Shown: positions 45,266 to 63,300 of the stretch, one piece after another | Layout of the letters: every line of letters begins with the position of its first letter | Position numbering within the stretch: the first letter of the stretch is position 1 | Origin: Corallococcus sp. EGB | Lineage (GTDB): Bacteria > Myxococcota > Myxococcia > Myxococcales > Myxococcaceae | Reading direction: 5' to 3' | DNA length: 64,000 nt | NCBI RefSeq assembly: GCF_019968905.1 | Contig: NZ_CP079946.1 | Coordinates: 2,356,001 to 2,420,000, forward strand | Made by a program: the position numbers and the translations under genes | The notes under the pieces: generated by a model | Told to the model about the DNA's origin: nothing | Databases searched by the model: none | The model's input: only the letters and a program-made list of their open reading frames with translations

Positions 45266-45280
45266 AGGTGAAACAGAACG

Positions 45281-45358
45281 GCCGGGACACACGCGGAAGT
45301 ACGCTACCGTTGCTTCCTTCCGGACCTGGCGGGGTTCGCGCCCCCACGTTGTCCCGAC
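45281..45358 (-). ncRNA. ffs: Signal recognition particle RNA (4.5S-type)
   Basis: On the minus strand the SRP core CCAGGTCCGGAAGGAAGCAA with its GGAA tetraloop is unmistakable. It is enclosed by a long stem whose ends GTCGGGAC (5') and GTCCCGGC (3') pair. It is a short bacterial form of about 80 nt without an Alu domain. Exact ends are approximate. It would bind Ffh for membrane-protein targeting. It closes the tRNA/tadA cluster, as the SRP RNA gene scr does beside tadA and dnaX in Bacillus subtilis. Confidence 0.92.
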
Positions 45359-45392
45359 CACAAAATCACTGCTGCCACTTCAAGATAACAAC

Positions 45393-45478
45393 GGAGAGGG
45401 TGGGATTCGAACCCACGATACCCTTTCAGATATACACGCGTTCCAGGCGTGCGCCTTCAACCGCTCGGCCACCTCTCC
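45393..45478 (-). tRNA. tRNA-Ser(GGA)
   Basis: Minus-strand acceptor GGAGAGG pairs with CCTCTCC and discriminator G. The anticodon stem CACGC/GCGTG encloses CTGGAAC, giving GGA. A long variable arm and GGTTCGAATCC T-arm identify a class II serine tRNA. CCA is not encoded. Confidence 0.95.
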
Positions 45479-45491
45479 AGAGACTTTGGAG

Positions 45492-45578
45492 CGGAGAGCG
45501 TAGGATTCGAACCTACGGTACCGTTGCCGGTACGCCTGATTTCGAGTCAGGTGCCTTCGACCACTCGGCCAGCTCTCC
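45492..45578 (-). tRNA. tRNA-Ser(CGA)
   Basis: Acceptor GGAGAGC pairs with GCTCTCC. The anticodon loop CTCGAAA between CCTGA and TCAGG reads CGA. The long variable arm is present and CCA is not encoded. It lies 7 bases past the tadA stop. Confidence 0.95.
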
Positions 45579-45585
45579 AGAATAT

Positions 45586-46053
45586 TCAGTTTTCGCGTCG
45601 CTTCGCGCGCAGGCGCTCGAAGAACGTCTTGAGAAGCTGGCGACTCTCTTCCGCCAGGATGCCGCTTGTGACCTGAAGCCGGTGGTTGTGCCGGGGCTCT
45701 TCCACCAGGTTGTACAGCGAGCCAACCGCACCCGCTTTCGGGTCCATTGTACCAAAGACGAGTCGGGTGACACGAGACTGCACCAGCGCACCGGCGCACA
45801 TGGCACACGGTTCCAGCGTCACGTAGAGGGTCACCCCGGAGAGCCGCCACGCATCACGCGCTTTCGCCGCGGCGGCGAGAGCAATCATTTCGGCGTGGGC
45901 AAAGGGGTTCCGGTCGCATTCGCGGCGGTTGTAACCCGTGCCCACGACGTTGCCGTCGAGCACCGCCACCGCACCGACCGGTACTTCCCCGAGTGAAGCC
46001 GCTTCCCGCGCGAGCTCTAAAGCCTGCTGCATGAAAGCGATGTCGTCACTCAT
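45586..46053 (-). CDS. tadA: tRNA-specific adenosine deaminase TadA
   Basis: TadA converts A34 to inosine in tRNA-Arg(ACG), letting it read CGU, CGC and CGA. The 155 residues carry the zinc deaminase motif HAE (53-55) and PCAMC (C83, C86), plus the substrate-loop context NPFAHAEMIAL and the C-terminal helix LKTFFERLRAKRRE. The gene lies between tRNA-Ser(CGA) and tRNA-Arg(ACG), its own substrate, 24 bases upstream on the same strand. It is probably transcribed as part of the tRNA array. Confidence 0.96.
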   Translation of the reverse strand: MSDDIAFMQQALELAREAASLGEVPVGAVAVLDGNVVGTGYNRRECDRNPFAHAEMIALAAAAKARDAWRLSGVTLYVTLEPCAMCAGALVQSRVTRLVFGTMDPKAGAVGSLYNLVEEPRHNHRLQVTSGILAEESRQLLKTFFERLRAKRREN

Positions 46054-46077
46054 GAGACGTGCGCGCCAAAGAAGAAG

Positions 46078-46154
46078 TGGCGCTCCCTGGAGGATTCGAA
46101 CCTCCGGCCTTCGGATTCGTAGTCCGACGCTCTATCCAGCTGAGCTAAGGGAGC
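46078..46154 (-). tRNA. tRNA-Arg(ACG)
   Basis: Acceptor GCTCCCT pairs with AGGGAGC and CCA is encoded. The anticodon loop CTACGAA between TCGGA and TCCGA reads ACG. Wobble A34 is the TadA target, and tadA is the adjacent downstream gene. Confidence 0.96.
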
Positions 46155-46186
46155 ATTTCTTCCGGCTGCTGCTTTACATCAAGTGG

Positions 46187-46273
46187 CGGAGAGAGAGGGA
46201 TTCGAACCCTCGATACCCTTTCGAGTATGCAGGTTTAGCAAACCTGTGCCTTCAGCCTCTCGGCCATCTCTCC
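46187..46273 (-). tRNA. tRNA-Ser(GCT)
   Basis: Acceptor GGAGAGA pairs with TCTCTCC. The anticodon loop TTGCTAA between CAGGT and ACCTG reads GCT. A long variable arm is present and CCA is not encoded. Confidence 0.95.
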
Positions 46274-46315
46274 AACTCTTCTCTGTCAAAGAACCGCGAA
46301 ACTCAAGCTCAAAAT

Positions 46316-46402
46316 CGGAGGCGGTAGGATTCGAACCTACGGAAGGCTTTCACCTTCTGCGGTTTTCAAGACCGCTGCCTTCAACCGCTCGGCCACGCCT
46401 CC
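46316..46402 (-). tRNA. tRNA-Ser(TGA)
   Basis: Acceptor GGAGGCG pairs with CGCCTCC. The anticodon loop CTTGAAA between GCGGT and ACCGC reads TGA. A long variable arm is present and CCA is not encoded. It is the tRNA nearest serS. Confidence 0.95.
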
Positions 46403-46527
46403 ACAGCAGGTGCCGCTCGGTTCCCGGCGGGCCAACCGCGCCCGTGGGGCCGCCCTTCTACATCATTTCTTCCCTGTGGCAAGAGAGATGTTGGCCCCTT
46501 TTTACGTCCGGGGGCCCATCGCCCTGA

Positions 46528-58537: not shown

Positions 58538-59496
58538 GCCCCTCGCACGAAGAGAAGGACGCCGCCCAGGACAAGCGCCCGGCCGTCGTCGTCACCGGCA
58601 TCAGCGGCAACCTGGGCCGCACGCTGGCCAAACAGCTGCACAAGCGCGAGCGCATCATCGGCATCGACCGGCGTCCCTTCATCGGGAAGCCGAAGGACGT
58701 CGAGATGCACCAGCTGGACTTGCGCAAGAAGAAGGCGGAGGACGTCTTCCGCAAGAACGAGGTCCGCGCCGTCATCCACATGGGCATCATGCATGACCCG
58801 CGGATGAGCGAGGAGGAGCACCACTCGTTCAACGTCGTGGGGACCACGCGCCTGCTGGAGTACTGCGCGAAGTACGGCGTGAAGAAGGTGGTGGTGCTGT
58901 CCTCGGCGAACGTCTACGGCCCCAGCCCGGACAACTCCAACTTCCTCACGGAGGACGCGCCGCTGATGGCCGCGAGCCGCTTCTCCGGCGTGCGCGACCT
59001 CATCGAAGTGGACATGCTGGCGCACAGCTTCTTCTGGAAGCACCCCGACATCGAGACGGTCATCCTGCGGCCCGTTCACATCGTGGGGCCCACCATCAAG
59101 AACGCGCCGTCCAACTACCTGCGGCTGCGCCACCCGTGGACGATGGCGGGCTTCGACCCCATGGTGCAGCTCATCCACGTGGAGGATGTGGCCCGCGCCA
59201 TGGTGGAGGCCCTGCGCCCGGAGCCCAAGGGCGTCTACAACGTCGTGGGCCCCGGCCAGGTGCCCCTGTCCGCGGTGCTGCGCGAGCTGGGCCACACCGC
59301 GATCCCCGTGCCACACCCCGTGGCCCGGCCGCTCCTGGGACTGATGTTCCGCTACCGGCTGGCCAACTTCCCGCCGCCGGAGCTGGACCACATCCAGTTC
59401 CTCTGCGCCGTGGACGGCAACCGCTGGGTCCAGGACGTGGGCTGGAAGGCCCGCCACTCCATGCGCGACACCATCCGCTCCGTCATCGGGGAGTAG
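58534..59496 (+). CDS. NAD-dependent epimerase/dehydratase family protein
   Basis: The 320-residue extended SDR has the NAD motif VVVTGISGNLGRTLAKQL near 18-35, VIHMGIMHDP, and LSSANVYGPSP in the active-site strand. The usual YxxxK is not obvious, and the sequence there runs RFSGVRDLIEVDML, so catalysis is uncertain. VILRPVHIVGP and VEDVARAMVEAL are typical. It starts at GTG 58534 overlapping the acyltransferase stop, so the two are coupled and a lipid or sterol-like substrate is plausible. Confidence 0.8.
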   Translation: MSPSHEEKDAAQDKRPAVVVTGISGNLGRTLAKQLHKRERIIGIDRRPFIGKPKDVEMHQLDLRKKKAEDVFRKNEVRAVIHMGIMHDPRMSEEEHHSFNVVGTTRLLEYCAKYGVKKVVVLSSANVYGPSPDNSNFLTEDAPLMAASRFSGVRDLIEVDMLAHSFFWKHPDIETVILRPVHIVGPTIKNAPSNYLRLRHPWTMAGFDPMVQLIHVEDVARAMVEALRPEPKGVYNVVGPGQVPLSAVLRELGHTAIPVPHPVARPLLGLMFRYRLANFPPPELDHIQFLCAVDGNRWVQDVGWKARHSMRDTIRSVIGE

Positions 59497-59535
59497 CGGC
59501 GGGGCGCGGCTTTTCGTGGGCCCCCGCCACGGTTC

Positions 59536-59553
59536 CCTGACATGCCTGTCAGG
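59536..59553. promoter_or_regulatory. Palindromic site 1, CCTGACA-N4-TGTCAGG
   Basis: Perfect 7-bp arms with a TGCC spacer, extended to 8 bp by outer C/G. It is centred about 166 bases upstream of the predicted sigma-54 start and is a candidate enhancer-binding-protein site. Confidence 0.65.
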
Positions 59554-59580
59554 GAGGACGTGGCGGGATGGCAGGGAGGC

Positions 59581-59598
59581 CCTGACAGCACTGTCAGG
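59581..59598. promoter_or_regulatory. Palindromic site 2, CCTGACA-N4-TGTCAGG
   Basis: The arms are identical to site 1 with spacer GCAC. Its centre is 45 bases from site 1 and about 121 bases upstream of the predicted sigma-54 start. Two matching dyads at this distance fit an upstream activating sequence. Confidence 0.65.
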
Positions 59599-59683
59599 CA
59601 CGGGGCGGTGAGGACGGGGTGTGAGGGCAGGCAAGTGCCTGATTTCCCGTGGGAACCGGGGGTGGGGCAGGGGGACGCGAGGG

Positions 59684-59700
59684 TTGGCACTCGCATTGCT
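59684..59700 (+). promoter_or_regulatory. Sigma-54 promoter, TTGGCAC-N5-TTGCT
   Basis: TTGGCACTCGCATTGCT has the invariant GG and GC separated by exactly 10 bases and agrees with the sigma-54 consensus at nearly every position. Transcription would start near 59711, reading right, where no plus-strand protein gene follows for over 600 bases. Confidence 0.75.
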
Positions 59701-59710
59701 CTAGAAGCCA

Positions 59711-59837
59711 GGCAACACGGCGGGGTCGCAGCGGGCCGGAAGTACCGCGCGACATCGTCACCCTGGTAGGGGGTTCCATTGGGGAGCCCTCGACGCCCAT
59801 CGTCTCGGCCGGCCCCGAGACGGTGGGCGACTTTTTT
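59711..59837 (+). ncRNA. Predicted sigma-54-dependent small RNA
   Basis: The sigma-54 promoter and the intrinsic terminator bracket a transcript of about 125 nt with no convincing start codon. Predicted structure includes a GGGTTCC/GGAGCCC stem near 59,771-59,790 and the terminator stem. M. xanthus Pxr is a known sigma-54-driven developmental sRNA; I cannot show that this is its homologue. Confidence 0.55.
59794..59837 (+). terminator. Intrinsic terminator of the predicted sRNA
   Basis: A 15-bp stem with one G-U pair (59794-59808 with 59815-59829) encloses a CCGGCC loop. AC and six T residues at 59832-59837 follow. The T-tract is on the plus strand only, so it does not serve the converging lipoprotein gene in the usual way. 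Confidence 0.85.
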
Positions 59838-59842
59838 GCAGG

Positions 59843-60292
59843 CTACGGAGATGGCGGTGCCTCCCGTGGCTCCAGCTCGCCGGCGAAGGGGCCGGACTGC
59901 TGCTTCTCCAACAGCCAGATGCCGTTGCGGAAGACGAACTCCGAGGTGACGGTGTCGGTCTGCTCGGTGGCGGAGGGCAGGCGCATCCACTGGATGCGGC
60001 TGTGGACGGTGGCGCGGCGGCCGTCGTCGGAGAGCTTCACATCCTCGATTTCGTAGTCGGTGACGGTGAGGTCCCGGTCGTCGTGGAGCTCGCGGCGCTG
60101 GCGCTCGAAGTCCTGGCGCTCCTCGGGGACGAGGAAGCTGGACAGCGCGCGGTAGTTCCTCCAGCGCAGGTTCTTGTGGAAGCCCTCCACGACGGGCTGG
60201 AGCGCTTCCAGGTCCGACTTGGGCGGCGTGTGGGCACAGGCCCCACCGAGGACCAGGGCGACCATCAGGGCAGACAGGCGTTTCATGCGCAT
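59843..60292 (-). CDS. Small lipoprotein of unknown function
   Basis: The 149-residue protein has a lipobox ending LGGACAH after a short positive start (MRMKRLSALMVAL). A mixed alpha/beta body (GFHKNLRWRNYRALSSFLVP, DDRDLTVTDYEIEDVKLSD, IQWMRLPSATEQTDTVTSEF) follows. This is typical of NTF2-like or DUF4878-type small lipoproteins, but I cannot name the family with certainty. ATG 60292 or 60286 are both possible. It converges on the predicted sRNA terminator and is divergent from the TPR gene, with an 86-base gap. Confidence 0.7.
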   Translation of the reverse strand: MRMKRLSALMVALVLGGACAHTPPKSDLEALQPVVEGFHKNLRWRNYRALSSFLVPEERQDFERQRRELHDDRDLTVTDYEIEDVKLSDDGRRATVHSRIQWMRLPSATEQTDTVTSEFVFRNGIWLLEKQQSGPFAGELEPREAPPSP

Positions 60293-60378
60293 GACGGTAC
60301 CAGCCGCTGGGCGGAACGGACGAGGGCAGTGGTATGGTCCGCGCTCCCCCGCCAACCGCACCGGAGTCGCGACTCAAC

Positions 60379-63300
60379 ATGGCCAAGTCGATGGTGGAGC
60401 GTTACGAGCAGCTCCTCCGGCAGGACCCGACCTCTTCCGTCTTCGTGGAGTTGGCGAAGGCGCTGCTGGAGAAGGGAGACGCGGCGCGCACCATCGAGGT
60501 GTGTACGCAGGGCATCTCCCACCACCCCACCTCCATCGTGGGGCGGGTGCTGTGGGGCAAGGCGCTCATCCAGCTGGGGCGGCCCGCGGAGGCGATGGAG
60601 CAGTTCGACCAGGCCATCGCCATCGAGCGGGACAACCCGTACGCCTACAACCTGATTGGCGACGTGCTTCTGCAGCGTGGCCTGTACCGCTCGGCGCTGC
60701 CGATCCTGCGCAAGGCCGTGGCGCTGCAGCCCAACAACGGGCGCGTGAAGCAGTGGTTGGATCAGGCCCAGCAGGCGCTGTCCGGTGGACCGGCGCCCAT
60801 CTTCGCGGACCTGGGCACCCTGTCGATCCCGGCGGCGGCGCCGGAAGAGGAGGCGCCGGAGCCGCCGCCTGCTTCGGAGGCGCACCCGTCCGCGTTCGAG
60901 GCGCGCGCCGCGGCGGCGGCCGGACTGGAGCCGCGCCGGCCCGCCCGGACGGAGACGCCCGCGGGGGGAGTGGAGCCGCAGGCGGCATCGAAGGTCGGCG
61001 CGGTCGAGGCGCATGGCGGGCCCATCGCCGCCACCGGGACGCCGGTGCCCGCGGACGCGCGGGACGCAGGCTCCGTGGCCGCGGCGGATCCGTCGAACGC
61101 GGGCCCGTCGGATCCGGGGCAGGAGCCGGGTTCGGGACGGGGCCGTGCGGCTTCGGATCCCGGGCAGGAGCCGGGTTCAGGACGGGGCCGTGTGGCTTCG
61201 GATCCGGGCCAGGAGCCGGGGTCATCGGGCCGGGGGCGTGCGGCCAGTGGGGCGTCGGATCCGGGGCAGGAGCCCGGTTCGGGGCGTGGGCTCGAGGCAT
61301 CAGGTGCCGGAGTGGAGCCGGGTTCGGGTGGCAGCGCTGATCCGGTGGACGGCGTGCCGTCGGCTCCGGACGCGGGCGCACCTCCCGTGTCCGCGGATCC
61401 AGGAGCCTCCGGGCGCGGGCGCAAGTCCGGAATGCTCGCGGACCTTCCCGACGCGCCTCCTCCGGATGAACCCGCCGCGTCGCAGGGCGGGGGACTGCTC
61501 GGAGACCTTCCGCCTCCGGAGGCGGCGCGGCCTCGCGCGGCCGCGCCGGTGACTCCCGCTCCGGTGGCACAGGCCGCGGGTGGCAAGCGCTCGCTGCTGG
61601 ACGACATCCCGGACGCGACGGAGCTGGCGGCGGCCGCGGCGCGCAACAAGGCGGCGGCCAACGCGAAGGACACGGAGGCGCTCGCGGCGAAGTACGAGCG
61701 CGAGATGCACGAGAAGATCGCCAAGGAGCGGGCGAAGCAGTCCCTCATCGAGCGCTATGGCGCGAAGACCGTGGCGCTCTTCGTGGCGCTCATCTTTCTG
61801 GGCGCGAGCGCCGGCTTCTTCATCCTCTACCGCTCCCGCCAGGGCGGCCAGACGCTGTCGGAGACGCTGGAGCTCTCGAAGCGCGCCGTGGCGCAGGACA
61901 CGGGCGCTTCGCTGGACGAGGCGCTCCGGCAGCTCGACCGCGCGCGCGACATGGACGAGTCCAGTCCCGCCGCATGGGCGCTCACGGGCTACGCGCACGC
62001 GCTGCGCTACCTGGACCACGGCGCCAACGCCGATGACCGACGGCTGGCGCTGGAGGCGCTGGAGAAGCCGGGCGTGAAGGAGGGCTTCAACGGCCTGGTG
62101 CTGGCCACCAACGCGCTCGTCGCCGACGACCGGGCCCGTGAGGCCGCGCACCGCGCGCTGCTCGCCTCGCAGGACGACGTGACGGAGGTGCACGCGCTCG
62201 CGGGCAGCCTGCTGCTCGCGGCCAAGGACGAGAAGAAGGCCCTGGACCGCTTCGACCGCGCGCTCAAGGCGTCGCCGGGCAACGTGCGCGCGCTGGTGTC
62301 GCTGGGCGACTACTACCTGGCCTCCGAGGACTTCCCGCAGGCGCTGGAGATGTTCAAGCGCGCTCGCGAGGTCTCCAAGGAACACCCGGCCGCCCGCATC
62401 GGCATGGCCGAGAGCCGGCTCGGGCTGGAGCAGGACCTGGACGCGGCGCTGGCGGACGTGGCGCCGCTCGCGCAGGACCCCAAGCTGCCTCCCGCGCTCC
62501 AGCCGCGTCAGCAGCTGGTGCACGGCGAGCTGCTGTCCGCGCTGGGCAAGTACGACGAGGCGCGCGAGATGCTCTCCAAGGGCACGCAGGGGCCGCTGGC
62601 CATGGACTTCCAGCTGGCGCTCGGGGCCGCGGGCCGCGCGGCGGGCAAGCTGGAGGCCGCGCAGCAGGCCTACGAGGCCGCGCTGAAGCTGCAGCCCAAG
62701 AGCGAGGCCGCGAAGGAGGGCCTGGGGCGGACGCTGGTGGACCGCGACCGCGAGAAGGAGGCCCTGCAGCGGCTGGAGGCCGACGGGGGCCGCAACGTGG
62801 CGCTGGTGCGGGGTGCGGCGTACGCGCGGCTCGGGGACTGGAAGCGCGCCCGCGCGGAGCTGGGCAAGACGCGCGTGAACGACCGCTATCCGCCGGAGGC
62901 CGTCGCGTGGCTCGCGCTGGCGGACGCCAACGAGGGCAACGGCGCCCAGGCGCGCGACGTGCTGGAGAAGGCCGTGGCCAAGAAGCCACGCACGGACCTG
63001 CGCGTGGCGCTGGGACAGGTGTACTGGCGCGAGCGCGCGCTGGACAAGGCGCAGGCCCAGTTCGACGAGGCGCTGAAGGACCCGCGCGACTACGAGGGCG
63101 CGTGCTCGCTGGGGCGGCTGCTGTTGTCGCGCGGCCTTCCGGACATGGCCCTCAAGCCGCTGACGCAGGCGGTGGAGCGCAACGGCGCGCACGGCGAGGC
63201 CCGCGACGCCCTGGGCCGCGCGCTCCTGGCGCTGGGCCGCACGCCGGAGGCGCTGAAGCAGTTCGAGGCGTGGCAGCTGGACAACCCGGGCAACGCGGCC

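Follow-up and report, generated by a model that had tools for sequence, protein, structure and literature searches.

Pxr is the well-studied developmental small RNA (sRNA) of the myxobacteria; it keeps growing cells from developing fruiting bodies, and work on its direct targets continues. The Qrr sRNAs of Vibrio are encoded by separate genes, answer to the activator LuxO and need Hfq, and GlmY and GlmZ of enteric bacteria are served by the activator GlrR and by IHF. Titrating RNAs of the CsrB/RsmZ/CrcZ type carry a GGA motif in their hairpin loops, while the terminator-loop sRNAs of Helicobacter and Campylobacter pair with G-rich mRNA leaders without Hfq. GlmY has been described as a decoy for the protein RapZ (PMC7073468), and M. 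xanthus as lacking hfq (PMC5684412).

The stretch of Corallococcus sp. EGB DNA analysed here (64,000 nt, hereafter the window) very probably encodes, judging from sequence and conservation, a further small RNA under a sigma-54 promoter that is kept across the relatives of Myxococcus (Table 1). Its promoter architecture, hairpin structure, distribution, module repetition and non-identity with Pxr can be read directly from genome sequences. We give a probability of roughly 0.6 to the reading that best explains these features, namely that this is a stand-alone sRNA gene of the Myxococcales, driven by an enhancer-binding protein and sigma-54, whose product would act in trans by sequestering a partner.

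Table 1. Features of the sRNA locus and its flanking genes, in positions of the window
Feature	Position	Strand	Evidence or remark
NAD-dependent epimerase/dehydratase gene, start approximate	58540..59496	+	PF01370, E 2.7e-28
Upstream palindrome 1, CTGACA-N4-TGTCAG, candidate enhancer-binding-protein site	59537..59552	+	
Upstream palindrome 2, CTGACA-N4-TGTCAG, candidate enhancer-binding-protein site	59582..59597	+	45 bp from palindrome 1
IHF-like site CAAGTGCCTGATT	59632..59644	-	reverse strand resembles consensus WATCAANNNNTTR, one mismatch
Sigma-54 -24/-12 promoter, TTGGCAC-N5-TTGCT (TTGGCACTCGCATTGCT)	59684..59700	+	exact match
Predicted small RNA, about 127 nt, start predicted	59711..59837	+	conserved body, fold, covariance-model match
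SL1, extra hairpin of Corallococcus/Myxococcus-type copies	59719..59759	+	
SL2, 9-bp stem, loop AUNGG	59769..59791	+	
SL3, 15-bp stem, CCGGCC loop, constant closing pairs; terminator hairpin	59794..59829	+	
Terminator T tract	59832..59837	+	
Convergent small lipoprotein-like gene, start approximate	59843..60292	-	'lipoprotein' by eye

A sequence-only reading of this DNA had considered that the RNA might be Pxr itself, a Pxr paralogue or a new regulator, and the last of these is the option left standing. The Rfam model RF01812 finds the real pxr of the genome at another locus (about C1:1194167-1194327; L078:2755-2861), with 113.2 bits over the full model length; in the same run three loci that carry the new RNA (L021, which holds the window RNA, L016 and L039) matched no Rfam family at E<=1, and RF01812 had no match in the 64-kb window at its gathering threshold. 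The covariance model of the window RNA gave no match over the pxr gene in L078, and its best score in 13 pxr loci was 18.4 bits (L128). Alignment with pxr scored 17, a value attained by 219 of 500 shuffles, so that the similarity is no better than that of shuffled sequence and paralogy is unsupported. The two RNAs do resemble each other in promoter class (for the window RNA, as judged from sequence), in size, in their hairpins ended by an intrinsic terminator, in their Hfq-less host and in their range, which in these searches was confined for both to the Myxococcus side of the myxobacteria: pxr was present in 33 and the window RNA in 34 of 59 relatives, both occurred in all 16 genomes of the window's genus, and all eight Myxococcus, Pyxidicoccus, Citreicoccus and related genomes tested held pxr as well as the new RNA. 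They differ in sequence and covariance match, in locus and in neighbours, and the tandem copies of the new RNA stand behind one promoter. Whereas pxr (L097) stands behind a PAS/GAF histidine kinase and an NtrC-type regulator, consistent with the location after pxrK/pxrR described in PMC5684412 and with the similar arrangement of nla19 described in PMC5568312, the window locus has no pxrK-pxrR, its neighbours being epimerase and lipoprotein-like genes. We therefore regard the chance that the window RNA is Pxr or a Pxr paralogue as negligible; it is very probably, on this comparison, a second and independent sigma-54 sRNA that coexists with Pxr.

Some observations concern pxr in its own right. 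We located the gene by scanning 30 of 56 activator loci, the sigma-54 activator domain PF00158 having 56 matches in the genome, some of them weak. The pxr gene has its own sigma-54-like promoter (TGGCATGGCACCTGCT), and it is followed here by a proton-antiporter (NuoN-like) gene on the other strand, not by the GNAT gene reported for M. xanthus. Two relatives, G022 and G026, hold four and five pxr-like matches within short stretches, similar to the tandem pxr paralogues reportedly present in Cystobacter.

The promoter of the window RNA had been noted beforehand as a near-perfect TTGGCAC-N5-TTGCT element, and the match is in fact exact. This exact string occurs once in the window and in none of 100 shuffles of it, and the exact pattern occurs four times in the whole 9.43-Mb genome, compared with zero occurrences of a reversed control pattern. 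With two mismatches allowed, the window still held a single match, but the shuffles held 3.4 on average, and so only the exactness of the element is telling. Our first set of homologues comprised 50 loci, 48 of them with a match, representing 37 distinct transcript sequences, with some genomes taken from two collections; two were left out, namely L020, a weak hit in another organism, and L017, whose sequence stops near the lipoprotein-like gene. TGGCAY-N5-TTGCT was present exactly once, within the stretch examined, in 48 of these 48 loci, including ones where the sequence match spanned the 3' half of the RNA only. In 10 Corallococcus-type loci the majority base was kept at 1.0 in both the -24 and the -12 block and at 0.74 in the 5-nt spacer between them. 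Among 20 further loci chosen for fetching, 12 had a slightly looser -24/-12 pattern and 12 a palindrome core within 230 bp; the others included near matches seen by eye (L162, L167, L173, L175), a second divergent copy at L168 and, at L169, a contig end. The genome's remaining three exact TTGGCAY-N5-TTGCT sites are at L059, L060 and L061, and the gene after the L059 site looks by eye like a sigma factor gene.

While the promoter and terminator anatomy given by the sequence-only reading stood, it had left out the twin palindromes and the IHF-like site that lie upstream. Within one mismatch, CTGACA-N4-TGTCAG occurs twice in the window against an expectation of 0.08, and 1 of 100 shuffles had two. 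A looser form, TGAC-N6-GTC[AG], was found at least once in 30 of 31 distinct homologous upstream regions and twice in 21 of the 31, the two sites being spaced by 45 bp in 20 of those 21 and by 47 bp in L038; a loose IHF-like pattern (IHF consensus WATCAANNNNTTR) was present in 26 of the 31. Conservation in the 10 Corallococcus-type loci follows the same elements, with 1.0 and 0.90 for the arms of palindrome 1 (spacer 0.675), 0.986 and 1.0 for those of palindrome 2 (spacer 0.80) and 0.953 for the IHF-like site, and with intermediate values between the two palindromes (0.87) and before the -24 box (0.86). An enhancer-binding protein would bind the two palindromes, which lie some 100 and 147 bp upstream of the -24 element, and IHF or a similar protein would probably bend the DNA at the site between them and the promoter. 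Upstream activator sites, an IHF-like site and a sigma-54 promoter driving a structured sRNA are likenesses to GlmY/GlmZ; however, the window RNA has no Rfam match to these, and their half-sites are arranged otherwise than the window palindromes. With the Qrr sRNAs it would share sigma-54 and an NtrC-type activator, but the window genome has no Hfq match, whereas Qrr RNAs need Hfq.

With one mismatch allowed, the 9.43-Mb genome holds five copies of the palindrome, two of which are at the sRNA locus, and a properly spaced sigma-54 element is absent beside all three others (L092, L095 and L096). We rejected L092 and L096 as further members of the regulon because no -24/-12 element lies nearby, and L095 because it lies inside a coding frame; a minus-strand promoter-like string about 120 bp from L095 is too closely spaced and reads towards the palindrome. 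The L095-type site (CTGACACGCGTGTCAG) was found again in most of the 16 genomes of the genus Corallococcus, a recurrence for which conservation of the coding sequence would account. A perfect CTGACA-N4-TGTCAG outside the sRNA locus is that at L092:1501-1516 (C1:464053 of this genome), near a gene that resembles by eye a pyridoxamine-phosphate-oxidase-type protein, and other genomes of the genus also hold further perfect sites.

By the rule that sigma-54 transcription starts about 12 nt after the GC of the -12 element, RNA polymerase would start at about 59711, and the RNA would end at the SL3 terminator. The 15-bp stem with six Ts that had been proposed as the terminator was borne out: 15 pairs enclose a 6-nt loop and are followed by ACTTTTTT to 59837, where the unit ends. 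The window holds one terminator of this form, compared with 0.3 expected from shuffles. The stretch 59705-59838 folds at -77.9 kcal/mol (z = -5.0), a value that none of 200 shuffles matched, and the covariance model scores the window RNA at 94.1 bits, the window sequence itself being in the model. In the 10 Corallococcus-type loci conservation is 0.96-0.99 over SL1-SL3, drops to 0.72 just past the T tract, and the lipoprotein-like gene reaches 0.64 over its 3' end. The predicted 127-nt transcript contains no ATG, GTG or TTG open reading frame of at least 10 codons, in agreement with the roughly 125 nt without a gene noted earlier. Such frames occur in 9 of the 37 distinct homologous transcripts, and therefore none is conserved; on this basis a coding function appears unlikely and was rejected. 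Longer GTG/TTG frames that cross the region (such as 59649-60056 on the plus strand and 59352-60386 on the minus strand) were dismissed as probable chance frames of GC-rich DNA.

The paired structure of the core, SL2-SL3, is supported by covariation. The core is gapless over 71 columns in 45 aligned sequences (37 distinct), and its fold leaves almost no unpaired stretch beyond the two short loops. In the named structure 94.9% of cells pair, two-sided changes occur at 14 of 24 pairs, and 73 cells show a two-sided change compared with 20.7 in shuffles, none of 500 shuffles reaching the observed number. Every measure falls when the partner is displaced by one, two or three columns. An unfavourable measure is the count of further pair types, which was attained by 46 of 500 shuffles. 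Two-sided changes affect 6 of the 9 pairs of SL2 and 8 of the 15 pairs of SL3, and each stem has one pair that is unpaired in 18 of 37 rows. All 45 aligned cores share the AU and GG of the SL2 loop as well as the CGACG junction; these cores were gathered with GGCCGGCCCC, part of CGGCCGGCCCCG, as anchor, so that the constancy of GGCCGGCCCC there is built in. In an anchor-free check, CGGCCGGCCCCG of SL3 was found in 48 of 48 loci of the first set and in 20 of 20 further loci. By eye, the SL2 loop and the junction are altered in the copies of family f3, and the junction reads CGGCG in four copies from the window's own family (L173-L176).

SL1 also covaries, with 33 cells showing a two-sided change compared with 12.7 in shuffles, although 22 of 500 shuffles reached the number of pairs with a two-sided change and 490 of 500 the number of further pair types. 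In 21 aligned sequences the apical GGGC of SL1 does not vary, and GGGCC (59733-59737 in the window) is shared by 20. This GGGCC is complementary to GGCCC of the SL3 loop, which may possibly reflect an internal kissing contact, or could be chance in a GC-rich genome.

These data bear on the simplest alternative, that the stem is a plain terminator of the epimerase gene beside a chance promoter-like string and that no sRNA exists. The stem does lie downstream of the epimerase gene on the same strand; however, the -24/-12 element, the palindrome arms and the transcript are all conserved above the surrounding bases, a terminator would not require such strong constraint on SL2 and the SL3 loop, and copies exist away from the epimerase. 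We consider this explanation highly improbable.

A search of the region across genomes, which the sequence-only reading had suggested, found promoter and terminator kept together, contradicting the notion that they lack conservation, and this conservation lends strong support to the predicted sRNA, driven by sigma-54 and ended by an intrinsic terminator. At the DNA level the region was found in 34 of 59 related genomes, all of them of the window's family (34 of the 35 genomes of that family searched). The covariance model of the 71-nt core matched in 101 of 145 genomes of the order Myxococcales and in 101 of 195 in the phylum, that is, 95 of the window's family, one of family f2 and five of family f3, and thus the new RNA also reaches two further families of the order in these searches. 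Among the genomes listed, one genome of the window's family had no core match (G101, 79% complete); 24 unmatched genomes in the order run and 74 in the phylum run fall outside the itemised output, and both runs used stricter filters with which weak matches may be lost. Searches of phages and plasmids gave no match to the window RNA at E<=0.01, and on these grounds we rejected a mobile origin. One genome holds a second, divergent core copy with its own sigma-54-like promoter and palindrome (L171; G023:C6:375226-375296), apparently, from its sequence, a paralogue of the window RNA. Two genomes of the window's family as small as 2.3 and 2.7 Mb have kept the RNA core (L173 and L174), and the -24/-12 pattern and palindromes were not found near the core in these two.

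The genes beside the RNA are conserved to differing degrees. Acyltransferase, epimerase and lipoprotein-like neighbours recur in most of the examined loci of the window's family, and the epimerase also adjoins the f2 copy; none of the three was found in six f3 loci (flanks from about 1 kb or less to 2 kb), where the copies adjoin other genes. The RNA is therefore not bound to a single neighbour, which speaks against a role solely in cis. The lipoprotein-like gene, for which there was no Pfam or NCBIfam match, would be the target if the RNA were a cis-acting antisense regulator of its convergent neighbour: the stop codon of the gene starts 6 bp beyond the T tract, the mRNA of the gene might overlap with the RNA, and the gene is kept in most examined family loci. 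Yet the RNA stops short of the gene, and at loci with a nearly unchanged RNA core the gene has dropped to 35-45% identity; it also went undetected in those six f3 loci within the same flanks, and in L044 it is found upstream on the same strand. Taken together, these points leave antisense action on this neighbour only a slim chance.

In 27 listed genomes of the genus g41 the core is repeated in tandem two to four times; the named tandem loci belong to Myxococcus and Pyxidicoccus, plus one record labelled Comamonas. That record (L019, Comamonas sp. KCTC 72670) has a Myxococcus-type locus with three modules in a genome that also has pxr, and its label is probably wrong. In seven aligned arrays the period is 71 nt, with 70 in one step, and each array has one promoter. 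The T tract of inner modules is interrupted, ending in G, in 10 of 11 cases, the sole exception being the first module of L012, which has kept six Ts; the tract of the final module is also interrupted (TTTCTTT) in all seven arrays. Given these final tracts and the six Ts of L012, the inner tracts are weakened only relatively. We infer from the sequences that a longer, polyvalent transcript would best account for the arrays; simple duplication with decay of the inner T tracts is a possible alternative. Repeated hairpin modules with constant loops are also a likeness to CsrB/RsmZ/CrcZ; however, the loops of the new RNA are without the GGA motif, it mostly has one module, and CsrA (PF02599) had zero matches in this genome in a search whose controls matched in 3 of 14 genomes. 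Membership of the CsrB type was rejected because of this missing CsrA match.

In the mechanism that we favour, the stand-alone gene with a sequestering RNA, the working unit would be the 71-nt two-hairpin module SL2-SL3, with its near-constant loops (AUNGG and CCGGCC) on covarying stems; Corallococcus/Myxococcus-type copies would add SL1, and Myxococcus-type loci would carry two to four modules behind one promoter. When the signal of the enhancer-binding protein is present, the loops would bind and sequester a partner in trans, most likely an RNA-binding protein, otherwise G-rich mRNA leaders reached through the terminator loop. That the loops stay constant while their stems covary suggests that something recognises them, and the repetition of modules favours titration of a partner, most likely a protein. 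We infer transcription, a single multi-module transcript, action in trans and sequestration from such features, with differing assurance: that the RNA is a trans-acting regulator is in our judgement likely, while for sequestration, which is built on module repetition and loop constancy, we would offer slightly less than even odds. The one-module state of most genomes, the window genome included, counts against sequestration, and a base-pairing role fits the constant loops equally well.

Such a role would make the RNA a trans-acting antisense sRNA whose loops, chiefly the C-rich CCGGCC, serve as seeds that pair with G-rich mRNA leaders without Hfq. Consistent with this, the SL3 loop and its closing pairs do not vary in any of the 48 first-set and 20 further loci while the stems covary, the genome gave no match to Hfq in a search that matched in 5 of 14 genomes as a control, and the GGGCC of SL1, complementary to the SL3 loop, could be an internal lock. 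On the other hand, the loops are short, at 5-6 nt, and one would less expect a pure antisense RNA to repeat its modules whole. We hold antisense pairing to be a possible but unlikely mode of action. The sequestration reading can be carried further, to an RNA decoy under a dedicated enhancer-binding protein that controls essentially one promoter, the decoy titrating a so far unrecognised RNA-binding protein, with inner terminators weakened and modules multiplied; in this full form the proposal is speculative and rather doubtful. If it were true, the decoy would give bacteria that have neither Hfq nor CsrA a new post-transcriptional hub, and Myxococcus and Pyxidicoccus would have raised decoy capacity by multiplying modules within one transcript. 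The natural copy-number series of one to four modules makes titration and antisense models directly testable against each other.

With no Rfam 15 family matching it, the window RNA would be missed by Rfam-based annotation. A sub-threshold match to the Burkholderia sRNA ncS035 (RF02870) over an f3 copy (L163:974-1084; 23.6 bits against a gathering threshold of 79, E 0.076) is probably chance, and the Rfam run that gave it showed no such match for L016, L039 or the window RNA. Our literature search returned papers on Pxr among the matches listed, and no title or abstract opening there describes the window RNA. The RNA-seq survey of Whitworth and Swain (2020) is described as giving tens of ncRNAs in M. 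xanthus (PMC8538405), among which the transcript of the window RNA may be included, and the portion of PMC9548883 that mentions sRNAs names none of them. The similarity searches used throughout favour close copies. Elsewhere in the window, on the minus strand at 45272-46403, four tRNA-Ser genes, one tRNA-Arg gene and a small SRP RNA lie within about 1.1 kb.
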